The notes under the pieces: model-generated
Seen by the model: only the letters and a program-made list of their open reading frames with translations
Database searches by the model: none
Told to the model about the DNA's origin: nothing
Program-made: the position numbers and the translations under genes
In this document: one piece after another, positions 44,829-55,309 of the stretch
Layout of the letters: each line of letters begins with the position of its first letter
Numbering within the stretch: the first letter of the stretch is position 1
Assembly: GCA_944392965.1 (NCBI GenBank)
Contig: CALXYM010000004.1
Span: 62,001-126,000, forward strand
From: an uncultured Spirochaetaceae bacterium
Lineage (GTDB): Bacteria > Spirochaetota > Spirochaetia > Sphaerochaetales > Sphaerochaetaceae
Direction of reading: 5' to 3'
DNA length: 64,000 nucleotides

Positions 44829-46052
44829 TTAATTTATCTTTTTCTCCAGGGCATATGGAAGGAGTGCATAGAACCCGGAGCATATTACAAGATCCTCAAC
44901 CCTGTTGATCTCGTTCGGAGCGTGTGCCTGCGCCTCATCTCCCGGACCGAAACCGATGGCAGGAATCTTATGGCGTCCCGTGGTAGCAACACAGTTCGTA
45001 CTGAACGTCCACTTATCAACAACAGGATCCTTCGCATACAACGCCTTATAATCGTTTATTGCAGCCTGTACAAGTTCATGGCTCTCAGGAATCTTCCATG
45101 TCGGGAAGTAAAGCTCCTGAGAGTACTCCTTGTTCGTCCAGCCTATCTTCTCATAGTTCGGCATCTCCACAATGATGGAATCAGGATCATCTCCTGTGGC
45201 CTCACTGACATACTTTCTAACCTGGCTGATCGCAAGATCGGCATCTTCTCCCCATGTGAGCCTTCTGTCGAGATAGAGCATTGCATAATCAGCAACCGCA
45301 CACTGTGAAGGACCCTTCACATCCATCTGGCTTACAGTAATCGTACCCTTGCCAAGGAAATTATCCTCATCCGGTTGCAGATCCTCATTCAGCTTTTCTA
45401 TCGCAAGGGCAGCACGAGCAGCCTTATAAGCTGCGGAGACTCCACGCTCAGGGGCAGAACCATGACAAGAGATACCTCTCAGGATTACCCTTATCTCCAT
45501 CCTTCCCCTGTGGCCACGATAGATTCTACAGCTTGTAGGCTCTGTAGATACAACAAGATCTGGTTTGAAGTTTTCCTCCTCAATCAGGTACTTCCAGCAC
45601 ATACCATCACAATCCTCTTCCATGACGGTGAATGTGAAGTAAACAGTATATTCACCACCATAACCAAGCTCTTTAAGGATACGTCCGGCAGTTATCATGC
45701 TGGCAGCACCTCCTTTCTGATCGCTTGCACCACGACCGTGAACCAGACCATCTTTTATCTCACCTGAGAACGGATCAAAGTTCCAGTTCTTCATATTTCC
45801 AACTTCAACGGTATCGATATGGGCATCAAATGCTATCTTCTTAGGACCGTTTCCGACCCTTCCTACAACAGAACCTAATCCATCGATATATACCTCATCA
45901 AAACCCGCTTCCTTGCAAAGTTCTACTATGAGGCGACAGACATCCTCCTCTTTTGAAGAATAGCTCTTAGTTCTTACGAGTTTTGAAAGGTTCTCCGCCG
46001 TATATGAGCGGTACTTCTCAGCTAAATCACGAATCTTTTCAGTTATTCCCAT
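44829..46052 (-). CDS. ygeY: YgeY-type M20 hydrolase
   Basis: A 407-residue M20 zinc peptidase-fold hydrolase of the YgeY type (the family annotated as selenium-metabolism-linked). Metal and catalytic residues lie in AFDAHIDTVE, GRGASDQKGG, VMEEDCDG and STEPT; the lid domain contains GHRGRMEIRVILRGISCHGS. Close family members are found in the anaerobic purine and uric-acid catabolism cluster. It is the last gene of the ygfK-ssnA-ygeY operon, 10 bases after ssnA. The exact substrate is not settled; an amide or carbamoyl intermediate is likely. Confidence 0.92.
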   Translation of the reverse strand: MGITEKIRDLAEKYRSYTAENLSKLVRTKSYSSKEEDVCRLIVELCKEAGFDEVYIDGLGSVVGRVGNGPKKIAFDAHIDTVEVGNMKNWNFDPFSGEIKDGLVHGRGASDQKGGAASMITAGRILKELGYGGEYTVYFTFTVMEEDCDGMCWKYLIEEENFKPDLVVSTEPTSCRIYRGHRGRMEIRVILRGISCHGSAPERGVSAAYKAARAALAIEKLNEDLQPDEDNFLGKGTITVSQMDVKGPSQCAVADYAMLYLDRRLTWGEDADLAISQVRKYVSEATGDDPDSIIVEMPNYEKIGWTNKEYSQELYFPTWKIPESHELVQAAINDYKALYAKDPVVDKWTFSTNCVATTGRHKIPAIGFGPGDEAQAHAPNEINRVEDLVICSGFYALLPYALEKKIN

Positions 46053-46062
46053 AACATTCCTC

Positions 46063-47403
46063 CTACTTTATCCTATCTGCTTTTTTCCAAAGCCTCTTCG
46101 CACACTCCCTGCTCTTGGCATAGATCTCATCCGCATCAATATCGCAGAACTTCTTATCCTTGAGAACAGTCTTACCATTTATTATCACAGTATCTACCGA
46201 ATTGCTGCTTATTCCCCATACGAAATGGGTAGCCGCGTTCTTCTTTACAAGAGGTGTCGGAGCATCATAATCAAGAAGAACAAGATCAGCCTTGTAACCT
46301 TCTTTTATCCGACCAAGCTTGAAGCGGGAAGAGAACGCGCTCTCAACAAGAGCGTTTCCCCTGTTAAGAATCTTAAGGAAATCAGCGGGCCACATCGCAC
46401 CCCCATCATCCTTATGCTTGAAGAATGCGATCTTGATCTCCTCAAACATGTTACCACCACAGCCATCCGTACCAAGGACAAGCTTATCGATATCTCTAAG
46501 ATGCCTGTTGTAACCGACATGGTTGTTCATATTGCTCCTCGGATTATGCGCAAAGAAGCATTTTCTCTCATTGAGAAGCTCAATTTCTGAATCATAGAGG
46601 TACAGGCCATGTACAAGGAGGCTTCTCTCATTCAAGAGGTCAAAATCATCAAGCCTCTCCACGATATCCTTCGCATATCTGTGATGAGAATAGACCTGAT
46701 CATACTTATCCTCAGCGATGTGGATATGGATACCTCTTCCCGTCTCCTCCTCTGCGCCTTTAAGCATCACCATTCCCTCATCGGGAATCGTGAACGGGGC
46801 ATGCGCTCCTATCATGGCCTCGACAAGAACATCCTTCTTCTCCTTCAGTTCCTCATCGACCTCTTTTGCAAATCGTATGTTCTCTCTTACCCCGTCTCGA
46901 ATCTCATCCATGCCACGATTTCTGTCCGTCACCTCATAGCATGTCACTCCACGGATTCCGACTTCTCTCATTCCTTTTGCTATCACTGAAAGAGAGCCGT
47001 CGATGAACGACGGGGATGCATGATGATCCACGACACTGGTAGTGCCTGCCTTGATCGCATCCAGGGAACAGATGAGGGATGAGTAATATGTACTCTCCTC
47101 ATCAAGAGCCCTATCCAGACGCCACCACCACTCTCTCAGGACTTCGATGAAATCCCGCTGAGGATTTGAATCGATGAGCATTCCCCTCGAAAGCCCTGAA
47201 TAATAATGGTGATGGGCACACACATTGCCCGGGATCAGGGTCTTACCGCTTCCATCGATAATACACTCTGCCTTGACATCCAGGTTCACCCCGATCTTCT
47301 TGATCTCACTCTTTTCGATATAGACATCCTGCCCCTCTGTAACCGTATATGGGGGTTTAGTCTCGAAAAGACGCACGTTTCTTATCAATATGCTCATACT
47401 CAC
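46063..47403 (-). CDS. ssnA: SsnA-type amidohydrolase
   Basis: A 446-residue amidohydrolase-superfamily enzyme of the SsnA group. Metal ligands are visible in VCAHHHYYSGLSRG, the HIHIAEDKYD strand, LVHGLYL and GTDGCGGNMFEE; the family is close to guanine deaminase and chlorohydrolases. It overlaps ygfK by 4 bases and precedes ygeY. In gut bacteria ssnA co-occurs with ygfK and ygeX in purine catabolism, where it is thought to open or deaminate a ring intermediate. The exact reaction is inferred, not shown. Confidence 0.9.
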   Translation of the reverse strand: MSMSILIRNVRLFETKPPYTVTEGQDVYIEKSEIKKIGVNLDVKAECIIDGSGKTLIPGNVCAHHHYYSGLSRGMLIDSNPQRDFIEVLREWWWRLDRALDEESTYYSSLICSLDAIKAGTTSVVDHHASPSFIDGSLSVIAKGMREVGIRGVTCYEVTDRNRGMDEIRDGVRENIRFAKEVDEELKEKKDVLVEAMIGAHAPFTIPDEGMVMLKGAEEETGRGIHIHIAEDKYDQVYSHHRYAKDIVERLDDFDLLNERSLLVHGLYLYDSEIELLNERKCFFAHNPRSNMNNHVGYNRHLRDIDKLVLGTDGCGGNMFEEIKIAFFKHKDDGGAMWPADFLKILNRGNALVESAFSSRFKLGRIKEGYKADLVLLDYDAPTPLVKKNAATHFVWGISSNSVDTVIINGKTVLKDKKFCDIDADEIYAKSRECAKRLWKKADRIK

Positions 47404-50400
47404 TCCTCCACTGGACCAAGCAGGTAATGATAGCTTGTAAATATCTCGTCAATGAGCATCTCAAGCTCAGCAGGAAGTCCGTCTACCACAACAAGGCCAT
47501 CCTTATCAAAAGAACCAGAGAGGACTTCTCCTTCATAGCGGACTGAGAGGAACTGACCATCATAGAAGAAGCCATCGTTCGTGCTCTTCTCAAAATCCTC
47601 CCTCAAGCTGAAAATGGTGAACTTCTTCCTGTATGGGCCTCCAGAGTACGGACAGAACGTCTCACAGTTTCCGCACTCGTTACAGTATGCATCGAGGTGA
47701 ACGATTTCGAACGGATCGGAGAACGCTTCCCAGGATCTCATATCTATGGCGACATTTGCCCTGTTTGGACAGACATCCACACACTTGGAACAGAGATATG
47801 AACACTCAAGACAGCGTGAGGCCTCACGTTTGAAGAACTCATCATCAGAGAGGGTAAGATCAGATTGTACAAGATGTCTCTTCTTCTCAATGAGGGAAGC
47901 AAAATACTCATCTTCAGCCGCTCTCAGCTCCTCATCATCTTCATCTACATCATCATCTTCTTCATCGTGATGATGTCCGCAAGAACATTCTTCTCCCTCT
48001 TCATGATAGTGGTGATGTCCACAAGAGCACTCCTCACCCTCCTCATGGTGATGGTCACAGGAACACTCATCCTCATCTTCTTCCTCACTCTCGATGATAT
48101 CATCATAAACTTCATCAATAGCCTTTTCGACAGCTTCTCTCGCAGATGCAATGCATTCAACCACGGTACTAGGCCCTGTCATGGCATCTCCGATGAGGAA
48201 TACCCCATCCTCTTCCGCATTATAAGAGAGCTCTCTAAGATCCTCATCGCTCACAGCTTCCCCTATTGCAAGAATCAGGTAGTCACAAGGAATTGTTGCA
48301 CTCTCTCCTGTATCAACAGGACGCCTTCTTCCAGACTCATCCTTCTCACCCAAGGCCATCTTATTCATCGTAAGGAGACCGTCTTTGAAATCGACAGGAT
48401 TATTAAGCCAATTGAAACGAACTCCTTCCTTAAGAGCTTCCTCATACTCTTCCCTGTCGGCAGGCATCTCAGAGAAACTGCGTCTGTACACGATATCAAC
48501 AGTATCAACACCACCGCATCTCTTTGCAGCCCGGGCTGCATCCATCGCGGTATTTCCTGCACCGATGACTACGACATGGGATCCCAGAAGCGTCGATCCA
48601 TCTTTTTTCAAACGCCGGAGGAAACTCACAGCACTCTCACGCCTTCCGTTACCACTGATCGAGATATTCTTTGATTTCTCCGCACCAATTGCGACAAAGA
48701 CGTATTCAAAACCTTCCGCTTTAAGTTCCGAGATACTCTTATGACTGTTAAAGTGGAAGGTCACACCGTTCTCTTCTATGAATGCAACATCCGCATCTAT
48801 GACCTTGGAAGGAATCCTGAACTCGGGAATCGTACTTCTGCAGACACCTCCTGCACTCTCATCCTTCTCGAAAACGGACACATCGAATCCTGCACGGCGG
48901 AGGAAGAATGCAGCAGACAGTCCTGCCGGACCGGCTCCTATGACAGCGGCCTTCACATCCCCATCCTCAGGCTTCTCCCAAAGTTCCTTCTTATATTCCT
49001 CAAAAGCGGAAGAGGCAAGTCTCTTTTTAACTTCCCTGATCTTAACCGCCCCCTCATAATCCTTCCTTGTACAATGGTTCTGGCATTCATGACTGCATAT
49101 CCAGCCTGTTATATTCGGAAGAGCGTTATCCAGATAGATGAGGGCAAGAGCCTCGGCTTTCCTTCCCTCCGCAGCAAGATTCACATAATCAGGAATCATC
49201 TGGTGGATTGGACATGACTCCACGCATGGAGCGACAAAACAATCCAGGAGAGGAAGGGGTGTGCCAATCTTCACGCTGCCCATCCCTTTATAATCCTTTG
49301 AGGAGAACTCCTTCGGATCTTTTGCCTTCGTGCACAGCACTTCAAGTTTTCCTACATCTATACCGTTACAATCCCAGGAAGGGAGGGATGATAGTATTCT
49401 CGCATCCTCAGAAAGCCTATAATACCCACCGGGCTGCAGAAGATCGGTTGCAACGGTTATCGGGCGAATTCCAGTCTCGAAAAGCTCTTTTATATTTAAG
49501 GCATTCGCTCCTCCGGAATATGAGATCGGAAGACTACCGGAGAACTCTTTTGACAGTTTTAAAGCGACACTTAAAGAAAGTGGCATAAGAGCACGGCCTG
49601 ACATGTACATCTCATCTCCAGGCAGTACCCCCTGATTGTTCACAGACCCAAGCGTGTTAGTAAGCTTTACTCCAAAGCCCCGCCCCTTCTCCTTTGCCAG
49701 TTTCATAAGACGCTTAAGCATTGCAATAGCATCATCGTACTGCAAATCATGCTCAAAACTCTCCCTCTTAAGAGTCAAGTATCCATAACCGAGACCATCG
49801 AGGATTGAACGAACCTCATCATAACCGAGAAGAGTCGGATTAAGCTTAACGAAGGTATCAAGACCTTTTTCTGTGAGCATATAGGTACAGATAGCCTCAA
49901 TCTCCTTTGGAGGGCATCCATGCATCGTTGAAAGGGTAACAGAGGGGGATATGACATGGCTTATCTTATCGAGATTCTTTAAGACACTCTCTTCCTTACC
50001 CTCGTATATCGTTCCTTCGAATATCTTATCCTCCATCATCACCTTAAGAGAGGATTTGTAGGCTTCAAAAAACTCGCTCTTGCGGGCATCCATCATGGAG
50101 GAGATGAACCTCTCCATCTTCTCACTCTTAATTCCCTCAAGATTATATCCGACGGACATGTTGAATATGAATGAAGGACCTGTCCAGTTATCATGGCTAA
50201 GAATATCGAGCACATGTACGACAAACCATGCTTTCAGATACTCGTCATACGCTTTTTCCAGACTCAGCTCGGTAGACCATTCGGTATTGTATCCCTCATC
50301 ACGGGCGTCAATGCAAGGCTTGGCTATCTCAAGACTATCAAGAATCTGTACAGTCTTAAGCTCTATGAACCTTGCCCCTGCTAGGTAACTTGTTATTATG

Positions 50401-50603
50401 TTCTGTGAAAGCTGTGTATGGGGACCAGCGGCAGGCCCGAGAGGGGTTCTCGCACTCTGAGAAAACACCTTTATGCTCTTTTTATCATCATCAGAGAAGA
50501 ACATCTCCTTCTTAAGCCCGAATATGCTTCCTTGATTCCTCAACTCCCCCGTAATTCTTTCAAATAATTCCTCAAACGGTACAGGTCGCATTATGTCTGC
50601 CAT
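47400..50603 (-). CDS. ygfK: YgfK-type multidomain flavoprotein with His/Cys-rich insert
   Basis: A 1067-residue protein, about 35 longer than E. coli YgfK. Domains in order: a dihydroorotate-dehydrogenase-like region (residues 1-430); a GltD-like iron-sulfur start (DCFVAPCVESCPIHQMIPDY); FAD-binding AAVIGAGPAGLSAAFFLRR; a pyridine-nucleotide site VVVIGAGNTAMDAARAA; and C-terminal [4Fe-4S] motifs CLECSYLCSKCVDVCP and CNECGNCETFCP. It is annotated as a putative selenate reductase subunit, but its co-occurrence with ygeX/ssnA places it in purine catabolism as an electron-transfer enzyme. Residues about 839-890 are an inserted acidic His/Cys repeat: ECSCDHHH, ECSCGHHHYH, ECSCGHHH, with runs of Asp/Glu. 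That insert looks metal-binding. First gene of the operon. Confidence 0.93.
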   Translation of the reverse strand: MADIMRPVPFEELFERITGELRNQGSIFGLKKEMFFSDDDKKSIKVFSQSARTPLGPAAGPHTQLSQNIITSYLAGARFIELKTVQILDSLEIAKPCIDARDEGYNTEWSTELSLEKAYDEYLKAWFVVHVLDILSHDNWTGPSFIFNMSVGYNLEGIKSEKMERFISSMMDARKSEFFEAYKSSLKVMMEDKIFEGTIYEGKEESVLKNLDKISHVISPSVTLSTMHGCPPKEIEAICTYMLTEKGLDTFVKLNPTLLGYDEVRSILDGLGYGYLTLKRESFEHDLQYDDAIAMLKRLMKLAKEKGRGFGVKLTNTLGSVNNQGVLPGDEMYMSGRALMPLSLSVALKLSKEFSGSLPISYSGGANALNIKELFETGIRPITVATDLLQPGGYYRLSEDARILSSLPSWDCNGIDVGKLEVLCTKAKDPKEFSSKDYKGMGSVKIGTPLPLLDCFVAPCVESCPIHQMIPDYVNLAAEGRKAEALALIYLDNALPNITGWICSHECQNHCTRKDYEGAVKIREVKKRLASSAFEEYKKELWEKPEDGDVKAAVIGAGPAGLSAAFFLRRAGFDVSVFEKDESAGGVCRSTIPEFRIPSKVIDADVAFIEENGVTFHFNSHKSISELKAEGFEYVFVAIGAEKSKNISISGNGRRESAVSFLRRLKKDGSTLLGSHVVVIGAGNTAMDAARAAKRCGGVDTVDIVYRRSFSEMPADREEYEEALKEGVRFNWLNNPVDFKDGLLTMNKMALGEKDESGRRRPVDTGESATIPCDYLILAIGEAVSDEDLRELSYNAEEDGVFLIGDAMTGPSTVVECIASAREAVEKAIDEVYDDIIESEEEDEDECSCDHHHEEGEECSCGHHHYHEEGEECSCGHHHDEEDDDVDEDDEELRAAEDEYFASLIEKKRHLVQSDLTLSDDEFFKREASRCLECSYLCSKCVDVCPNRANVAIDMRSWEAFSDPFEIVHLDAYCNECGNCETFCPYSGGPYRKKFTIFSLREDFEKSTNDGFFYDGQFLSVRYEGEVLSGSFDKDGLVVVDGLPAELEMLIDEIFTSYHYLLGPVEE

Positions 50604-50976: not shown

Positions 50977-51663
50977 ATGATCAGAAAAATTGTAAACATA
51001 GATGAAAAGAAATGCACCGGCTGTGGTGCCTGTGTATCTGCATGCCATGAGGGGGCCATCGCAATGGTAAATGGGAAGGCAAAGCTCATAAGGGATGATT
51101 ACTGCGACGGCCTTGGAGACTGTCTTCCCTCCTGCCCTGCTGATGCCATTATGATAATTGAAAGAGAAGCCCTCTCTTATGATGAGGAGGCTGTTAAAGA
51201 GGCCCATAATCAGAAGAAAACAGATTCATGCGGATGCCCCGGTTCCATGGCAAAAGAAGTAAAAAGAGAGGATGAAAGACCTATCCATTCCCATTTTACT
51301 GAGAGCAGGCTTTCCAACTGGCCAGTTCAAATCAAACTTGTACCAGTAAGTGCACCTTATTTCAATGGAGCAGATCTGCTCATAGCGGCAGACTGTACGG
51401 CATATGCCTATGGATCCTTCCATGAGAAGTTCATGAGAAACAGGATTACCCTCATAGGTTGTCCGAAGCTGGATGGGATAGATTACACGGAAAAGCTTGC
51501 CTCGATAATCCTTGCAAATGAGATAAACTCTGTGACAGTGACACGAATGGAGGTACCTTGCTGTGGAGGTCTTGAAATGGCGGTAAGGAAAGCACTTGAA
51601 ATAAGTGGGAAGAATATACCGCTCTCCGTTATCACGCTTTCAACTGAGGGGAGAATCCTTTGA
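50977..51663 (+). CDS. Ferredoxin-type 4Fe-4S protein
   Basis: A 228-residue protein with two N-terminal [4Fe-4S] clusters (CTGCGACVSACHEGA and CDGLGDCLPSCPADA, the second irregular) and a C-terminal domain with CGCPGS, DCTAYAYG, a LIGCPKLDG strand and VPCCGGLE. The C-terminal part is typical of iron-sulfur proteins encoded beside hybrid-cluster and anaerobic redox systems. AAGGAG lies before the ATG. It is divergent from ygfK and overlaps the next gene by one base, so both may feed electrons to the same pathway. The partner reaction is unknown. Confidence 0.8.
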   Translation: MIRKIVNIDEKKCTGCGACVSACHEGAIAMVNGKAKLIRDDYCDGLGDCLPSCPADAIMIIEREALSYDEEAVKEAHNQKKTDSCGCPGSMAKEVKREDERPIHSHFTESRLSNWPVQIKLVPVSAPYFNGADLLIAADCTAYAYGSFHEKFMRNRITLIGCPKLDGIDYTEKLASIILANEINSVTVTRMEVPCCGGLEMAVRKALEISGKNIPLSVITLSTEGRIL

Positions 51664-52130
51664 TGAACGAAAAGAAAGGACAACTGCTTTCAGCTCTTAT
51701 CGGACTGGCACGCGCAAGTGAGAATAATGAATGTAAACTGACAGAGGATACGGATCGCATCGTCACAGACTCACTTGTCACACTCGCAGAAGAGGATATA
51801 AACACCCGTGTACTTGAATATCTCCTACTGAATATTAAAAAGGAGAAAAAGCGTCTTGTGCCAGACTGTTTCAACTGCTCATCCCCTTGTGGAAGGACAA
51901 AAGATTATGATTTATCACTGATGAAAAAGGACGGAGATATAATAAGGAAACTCAAAACGGAACTGATTTCTTCTCTTATTCAGATTGCGAAGAACTCTTC
52001 TGGGAGGAAATCAACATCCTATCTTTATAAGGGGTTATATTATATGGGGCTTACAGATGTGACTAAGGGATTTCTCACATATTTTATAGATGAAGTGAAA
52101 GCCATCATAGCCCTATCTTCACAGTCATAA
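51663..52130 (+). CDS. Helical cysteine-containing protein, unknown
   Basis: A 155-residue mostly helical protein with a central DCFNCSSPCGRTKDYDL cluster (about residues 67-83). That CxxC-x3-C arrangement and the flanking helices resemble the N-terminal helical bundle of hybrid-cluster (hydroxylamine reductase) proteins, but no catalytic domain follows. The start is the ATG at 51663, which overlaps the TGA of the ferredoxin gene and has GGGGAGA upstream. It is translationally coupled to the ferredoxin and may be its small partner. Confidence 0.65.
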   Translation: MNEKKGQLLSALIGLARASENNECKLTEDTDRIVTDSLVTLAEEDINTRVLEYLLLNIKKEKKRLVPDCFNCSSPCGRTKDYDLSLMKKDGDIIRKLKTELISSLIQIAKNSSGRKSTSYLYKGLYYMGLTDVTKGFLTYFIDEVKAIIALSSQS

Positions 52131-54001: not shown

Positions 54002-55309
54002 TTATTTGTCGTCTTTAGGTAATATTAGATTAAGAATGATAGCAACTAAGGTTGCGATTACTACAGGAGAAGAGGCAAAGACCATTGTAACCCATTCTGG
54101 AAACTGGGAGAGAGATTCGCTTACTTGGCTGACCCCCATGCCTAGAGCGGCGGAAAGTCCGACTATCGAGGTATTGCGGTAACTCATTGGCTGCATCGCG
54201 ACAAGTTTCATTCCCGTCATCGCAATGGAAGCAAAAACGCTTACAGTCGCACCTCCAAGCACGCACTGGGGAATCGTAGTCAGGAGTGCTGAAAATTTAG
54301 GAACCAGTCCTGCAATAAGAAGCATAATGGCTGTAAGGGATAACACTTTCCTGTTAACAACTTTAGTAGAAGAAACTATTCCTACATTCTGGGAATATGT
54401 GGCATTCGGCAACCCTCCAAAGAGGGAAGAGAGCACATTCGTAACACCAAAGCCTATGATACCACCTCTTAGCTCATCTCCAGATGGTTCCCTCTCTAGT
54501 CCACCGATGGTAGTCGCGGACATGTCCCCTATCGCCTGCACAGCATTAATCGCAAAAAGAACAGAGATAGCAAGAGTAGATGAGAATTCAAACTTTATTC
54601 CAAAAGGTGCGATTTCAGGAAGAGAGAAAAGACTCGCAGTTCCAACCGCAGACATGTCTACCATGCCGAAGAAAGAGGAGAGGATGTATCCTGCCACTAT
54701 TCCAAGAAGTATGGAGGCAAGTTTCAGCATTCCTTTTCCAAAGTGATTCAGTACTGTAACACAGATGAGCGTGAATATGGAGACAACCCAGTTCTGCCAG
54801 CTACCGAAATTCACACTCCCGCTTCCTCCAGCCATATAGCTTATCGCAGTCGGATAGAGAGAAAGACCTATCGTGAATACGACGGTTCCCGTGATAAGAG
54901 GTGGAAAAAGTTTCTGTATCCTCTTTGCAAATACTCCGATGATTATGGCGACGACTCCTCCAATAAGTTGAGCTCCAAAGATCTCAGCGATTCCAAATCT
55001 GACTGCAATGCTCTGCATTGTCGCAAGATATGCAAAACTGACACCCATTATGACAGGAAGCCTTGCACCACATATACGTGTAATACCAAACAGCTGTAAA
55101 AGCGTGGAGAGAGCAGCACATACAAGAGAGGACTGGATGAGCAGGATTCTGGAGGCACTATCAAGACCTGCGACAGCAGAGACGATGATCGCGGGCGTCA
55201 CACAGCCTACGATCATGGCAACCAGATGCTGAAGGGCAAGGGGAAAAGAATATTTCAAAGGAGGAAGGTGTCCATCCATTTCAAAAAGCAGGTTATTCTC
55301 ATCGCTCAT
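54002..55309 (-). CDS. NCS2-family purine (xanthine/uric acid) permease
   Basis: A 435-residue transporter of the NCS2 family (14 helices). Signature residues are HLVAMIVGCVTPA in helix 1, the GNFGSWQNWVVSIF-like segment, the substrate motif LFGGLPNATYSQNVGIVSST and PQCVLGGATVSVF. NCS2 members import xanthine, uric acid or uracil with H+. Close proximity to ygfK-ssnA-ygeY suggests a purine. It is downstream of a decayed region and monocistronic. Which purine it carries cannot be told from sequence; uracil is the main alternative. Confidence 0.87.
   Translation of the reverse strand: MSDENNLLFEMDGHLPPLKYSFPLALQHLVAMIVGCVTPAIIVSAVAGLDSASRILLIQSSLVCAALSTLLQLFGITRICGARLPVIMGVSFAYLATMQSIAVRFGIAEIFGAQLIGGVVAIIIGVFAKRIQKLFPPLITGTVVFTIGLSLYPTAISYMAGGSGSVNFGSWQNWVVSIFTLICVTVLNHFGKGMLKLASILLGIVAGYILSSFFGMVDMSAVGTASLFSLPEIAPFGIKFEFSSTLAISVLFAINAVQAIGDMSATTIGGLEREPSGDELRGGIIGFGVTNVLSSLFGGLPNATYSQNVGIVSSTKVVNRKVLSLTAIMLLIAGLVPKFSALLTTIPQCVLGGATVSVFASIAMTGMKLVAMQPMSYRNTSIVGLSAALGMGVSQVSESLSQFPEWVTMVFASSPVVIATLVAIILNLILPKDDK

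Follow-up and report, generated by a model that had tools for sequence, protein, structure and literature searches.

A Cys/His-rich acidic linker in the YgfK protein of one spirochaete clade and its possible role as a metal-binding arm

We analyzed a 64,000-nucleotide stretch of an uncultured Spirochaetaceae genome (the window), the minus strand of which carries ygfK (47400..50603), the gene for a 1067-aa flavin and 4Fe-4S enzyme. The protein matches the YgfK profile TIGR03315 over its full length (residues 2-1062), with 1279 bits versus a curated cut-off of 835.3, and Pfam places Pyr_redox_2 at residues 552-807, along with a Fer4_20 match. Directly downstream on the same strand lies ssnA (46063..47403; NF005540/TIGR03314), which encodes a metal-dependent amidohydrolase and has a 4-nt overlap of its GTG start with the ygfK stop, as judged from the ORF coordinates, followed by ygeY (44829..46052; NF009555, TIGR03526), an M20-type hydrolase gene belonging to the same gene run. 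We take SsnA and YgeY to be zinc-dependent, judging from what is usual for their respective families, amidohydrolase and M20, and from the ZnCl2 in the assay buffer of the E. coli system. Upstream of ygfK, a divergent pair on the plus strand (50977-52130) encodes a two-cluster ferredoxin-like protein of 228 aa and a second product, 156 aa long, for which no family match was found. YgfK of E. coli is an NAD(P)H-dependent yanthine reductase to which SsnA couples; in the assay, which contained 1 mM ZnCl2, product was obtained only with the amidohydrolase SsnA present, and the Fe-S clusters could be reconstituted in vitro (PMC12507026).

The window protein and E. coli YgfK are full-length homologues with about 52% identity, equal domains and an ssnA neighbour, but they differ in a linker that comprises 12 residues, no Cys and one His in E. 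coli, versus 64 residues, 6 Cys and 10 His here. Alignment with YgfK homologues delimits this lineage-specific linker to residues 831-894 (47922..48113, minus strand), with the sequence EVYDDIIESEEEDEDECSCDHHHEEGEECSCGHHHYHEEGEECSCGHHHDEEDDDVDEDDEELR. Thirty-two of its residues are Asp or Glu, and it contains three C-S-C-[G/D]-H-H-H units: CSCDHHH at residues 847-853 (48045..48065), CSCGHHH at 859-865 (48009..48029) and a second CSCGHHH at 873-879 (47967..47987), all on the minus strand. Thus, an earlier interpretation made from the window sequence alone (the sequence-only reading), which had described a Cys-His repeat insert of three units set among acidic residues, with six Cys and at least nine His, between the FAD domain and the C-terminal clusters of YgfK and with no known counterpart in the E. 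coli protein, is correct in each of these particulars. Compared to the remainder of YgfK, the linker is enriched in Cys (binomial P = 0.004) and in His (P = 4e-8), and none of 100,000 shuffles of its residues produced three CxCxHxH units. The three units share their peptide and differ in silent third positions, and the underlying DNA repeat, with a period of 42 bp and 2.2 copies, is only about 80% identical. Likeness in peptide combined with unlikeness in silent bases is indicative of conservation of the protein sequence, not of recent DNA copying; a recent tandem duplication of DNA as the origin of the units is therefore ruled out.

The structural setting was examined in an AlphaFold2 model built from a 39-sequence alignment (mean pLDDT 87, pTM 0.82). 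DSSP applied to this model assigns one helix to residues 814-844 (48072..48164, minus strand) and another to residues 884-909 (47877..47954, minus strand); both are confident and form the arms of a helical hairpin ahead of the C-terminal 4Fe-4S domain, with the insert as its tip. The loop between them, residues 846-885 (47949..48068, minus strand), has pLDDT < 50 and is thus predicted to be disordered, as in known disordered metal-binding Cys/His segments. The C-terminal 4Fe-4S cysteines, C931-C945 and C974-C984 (residues 931-984; 47652..47813, minus strand), follow the insert, and these Fe-S ligands occupy invariant columns of the 39-sequence alignment, whether the insert is present or absent. 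The cysteines of the insert are therefore additional to the core ligands, and the possibility that they substitute for lost Fe-S ligands is rejected. Foldseek related the redox core of YgfK to Nfn, GltD-like and dihydropyrimidine dehydrogenase structures. For the insert, a phmmer search of a 46-aa segment against the PDB gave only a chance match (E = 0.16).

YgfK homologues were collected from relatives of the source genome, from public genome contigs and from plasmid-collection records (E. coli, Enterococcus faecalis and Collinsella aerofaciens). The insert site spans 9-12 residues in the latter three species and likewise in Vibrio, Photobacterium, Serratia, Hafnia, Aeromonas and Citrobacter, and 11-14 residues in several more distant spirochaetes. 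In a tree of the core protein, from which the insert columns were excluded, all Cys/His linkers fall within one spirochaete clade of 69 rows (SH-aLRT 100), the members of which include Sphaerochaeta, Pleomorphochaeta, Bullifex (among them Bullifex porci, L058, whose linker has both Cys and His) and the genus of the window itself; 'Candidatus Ornithospirochaeta' MAGs are among the close matches listed for YgfK. It should be noted that this tree was built quickly, without the mixture model, and that some of its long branches join one another; support is strong for the large clade but not for the exact placement of L006 and L103. The extended linker is thus shared beyond the source genome, yet is not universal in YgfK, and presence in every YgfK, which the sequence-only reading had named as grounds for dismissing its proposal, was not observed. 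One Bacillota and one Actinomycetota protein were compared, and both were without the insert. The gene neighbourhood does not predict the insert, because ssnA adjoins ygfK in species with and without it.

Within the clade, 67 of the 69 proteins have an acidic linker of 36-81 residues that is rich in Cys and/or His and variable in copy number, up to five units with 12 Cys and 14 His (L036). The ligands are Cys only in eight loci (L019, L024, L048, L083, L085, L088, L090 and L091) and His only in one (L076). The remaining two proteins (L059 and L103) have acidic linkers of 25-26 residues with neither Cys nor His, so that an acidic extension may have come first and the metal ligands later, or these two may have lost the ligands. 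In 16 close pairs, changed Cys/His codons comprised 49 synonymous and 22 non-synonymous cases, i.e., a synonymous fraction of 0.69, compared to a neutral expectation of at most 0.33 for one-step codon changes at Cys and His. Against this expectation, P is 9e-10, or 2e-6 when 13 gapped positions are taken as changes; the direction is clear, although the P values are optimistic because low-complexity sequences, when aligned in pairs, tend to be matched at identical residues. The prevailing arrangement of the cysteines is CxC, which accounts for 153 of 293 pairs of adjacent Cys, with Gly as the commonest next residue. Judging from these alignments, the predominance of synonymous changes indicates that the ligand residues of the linker are conserved.

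Similar arrays occur on unrelated proteins. A pattern search of 60 relatives pointed to a TPR protein, encoded in a conserved run with what we take, from reading the translations, to be tsaE- and tsaB-like genes, that ends in an acidic CxCGHHH or CCHHH array. The source-genome copy, beside the tsaE-like gene and outside the window (G000:C4:29086-30489; L153 2087-3490), has CCHHH-type units in a tail with 10 Cys and 25 His. The tail is present in all full-length genus members read and missing in three class-level relatives read, and the protein matched TPR families only. A third host of a Cys/His tail is an unrelated minus-strand frame of 471 codons from the same family but a different genus (L222; G088), which ends in HCHCHDHEGEGCGCHHDHEDGHCHCHE. 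In addition, a ZntA-like, Zn/Cd-type P-type ATPase of a related spirochaete (L129, L155; G058) has a long His-rich N-terminus that repeats CSCGHDH. Within the source genome, YgfK and the TPR protein were the only coding arrays recovered with the patterns applied; the other matches examined there were short frames without an array, which speaks against a spread of the motif throughout that genome. A literature search on the repeat motif or on metal binding in Sphaerochaeta returned nothing relevant.

Several known systems resemble parts of this arrangement. Bacterial metallothioneins include short Cys/His segments with CxC spacing. The YgfK linker is likewise short and CxC-spaced but is not a free-standing protein, and no metallothionein family was found in full-length YgfK at Pfam E <= 0.001. 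The N-terminal units of the L129 ATPase (CSCGHDH/CSCGHEH) are nearly identical to the YgfK unit, although the ATPase is a membrane metal exporter unrelated to YgfK. The SlyD tail has no fixed structure, abounds in His, Cys, Asp and Glu and differs between species; it binds several Ni or Zn ions, up to 7 in the case of Ni (PMC7055735). The YgfK linker is also rich in these four residues, predicted to be disordered and variable among species; unlike the terminal tail of SlyD, a prolyl isomerase, it lies as a loop inside a redox enzyme and carries ordered CxC(G)HHH units. The likeness is to the tail only, as no FKBP-type prolyl isomerase domain was found in YgfK (Pfam E <= 0.001). HypB, UreG and COG0523 GTPases similarly have low-complexity metal-binding segments appended to a protein, metal binding by YgfK being presumed; their stretches are mostly His without CxC pairs, and their hosts are metal-insertion GTPases. 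His stretches on UreG or UreE are thought to be able to replace separate metallochaperones (PMC2770081), and these stretches, together with SlyD tails, make a metal store in cis plausible.

Our best explanation, offered tentatively and with somewhat less than even confidence, is that the insert is a disordered metal-binding arm resembling the SlyD tail, likely loaded with Zn(II), that acts as a local buffer serving SsnA and YgeY. A surface-exposed arm would have been inserted in the hairpin that separates the FAD/NAD(P)H domain from the C-terminal 4Fe-4S domain of an enzyme that is presumably a yanthine (2,8-dioxopurine) reductase, the activity known from E. coli YgfK. Its CxC thiolate pairs, His clusters and carboxylates would coordinate several divalent ions, most likely Zn(II), while lacking a fixed fold, like the SlyD tail, and would hold the metal near the enzyme complex. 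From there the arm could supply the hydrolases YgeY and SsnA, the latter being presumably needed to pull the unfavourable YgfK reaction forward, and could keep loose metal off the Fe-S clusters. The present data establish the insert, its confinement to one clade, its conserved ligands, its predicted disorder and the arrays on unrelated proteins; metal binding, the identity of the metal as zinc and its service to the two hydrolases are what we infer. Zinc is preferred because of the hydrolase neighbours, the ZnuA-type uptake operon (ZnuA was found in the source genome) and the similar array on the ATPase, and because HypB was not found. Retention of a Cys- and/or His-rich acidic linker by nearly the whole clade over deep divergence speaks for such an arm. 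Conversely, species without the insert also have an adjacent ssnA, and their enzymes need no arm; the Cys-only clade retains no His; and the ATPase parallel (L129) comes from another family of the class. The wide variation in copy number and ligand set (Cys-only, His-only, two with neither) also argues against one precise transfer site. ZnuA was found in 28 of 29 counted genus genomes with His-bearing linkers, and the genus genomes with Cys-only linkers (G013, G022 and G031) are without it; since the Cys-only linkers represent one clade, this joint absence of linker His and ZnuA counts as one event and is a lead only.

If the loop served solely as a protective sink, it would scavenge oxidants or toxic thiophilic metals (Cd, Cu and surplus Zn) and shield the adjacent 4Fe-4S clusters, with no delivery to SsnA. 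The loop directly precedes the 2x4Fe-4S domain, the CSCGHDH repeats occur on a ZntA/Cd-type ATPase, and a variable copy number fits a sponge; however, a single enzyme is poorly suited to cell-wide detoxification, and the same chemistry proceeds in species that lack the insert, so that we consider this alternative unlikely, albeit a serious one. Neutral low-complexity drift, in which an acidic hinge tolerates the expansion of Cys and His with no selected metal role, would account for the great variation in length and copy number and for the acidic linkers without Cys/His (L059 and L103). The synonymous excess at Cys/His codons, the retention of the linker in 67 of 69 clade members, the ordered CxC(G)HxH units and the recurrence of arrays on unrelated proteins all run counter to drift, which appears rather improbable. 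Iron loading, whereby the arm collects Fe(II) to assemble or repair the 4Fe-4S clusters of YgfK, draws on the proximity of the arm to the cluster domain and on the ability of Cys, His and carboxylates to coordinate Fe(II). Yet His-rich arrays of CxC pairs have a preference for Zn, Ni or Cu, the TPR protein with a comparable tail matched TPR families only, and no such arm was needed for the in vitro reconstitution of the clusters of E. coli YgfK (PMC12507026), leaving this explanation with little probability.

A nickel store for a nickel enzyme, as in SlyD or HypB tails, is suggested by the likeness to the SlyD tail with its up to 7 Ni (PMC7055735). HypB, however, was not found in the source genome at the profile cut-off and exceeded it in only 2 of 36 genus members (G031 and G005); a nickel store is accordingly the most improbable of these alternatives, and a supply of nickel for hydrogenase maturation is unlikely. 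The sequence-only reading had likened the insert to nickel, zinc or copper storage tails; on the present analysis the resemblance to Cys/His/acidic tails holds and a storage tail is plausible and partly supported, whereas nickel, in a hydrogenase-maturation role, is the least likely of the three metals.

Appended metal-binding low-complexity segments are already known; it is YgfK that is the unexpected host enzyme. In the anaerobic pathway of uric acid, described recently and relevant to gout, the dearomatising step falls to YgfK, and a conserved metal-binding loop in the YgfK of gut spirochaetes, if true, would link metal supply to purine breakdown. In a more speculative extension, which we regard as doubtful, Sphaerochaetaceae would spread part of their labile zinc over Cys/His-acidic arms on unrelated soluble proteins, replacing or supplementing a dedicated metallothionein, and the YgfK arm would donate zinc in cis, thereby coupling purine reduction to the zinc hydrolase SsnA. 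The natural series of linkers, from 0 to 5 repeat units and from Cys-only to His-rich, offers a probe of the role of appended metal-binding segments in their hosts. Elsewhere in the window, a minus-strand gene (54002-55309) encodes a xanthine/uracil-type permease, with TIGR00801 above and TIGR03173 just below the cut-off, which fits a purine-use region. XdhD is encoded on another contig of the source genome (G000:C7; TIGR03313, 1210.9 bits versus a cut-off of 1101.9), away from ygfK, in a locus (L152; G000:C7:34000-52000) with other molybdenum hydroxylase subunits alongside.
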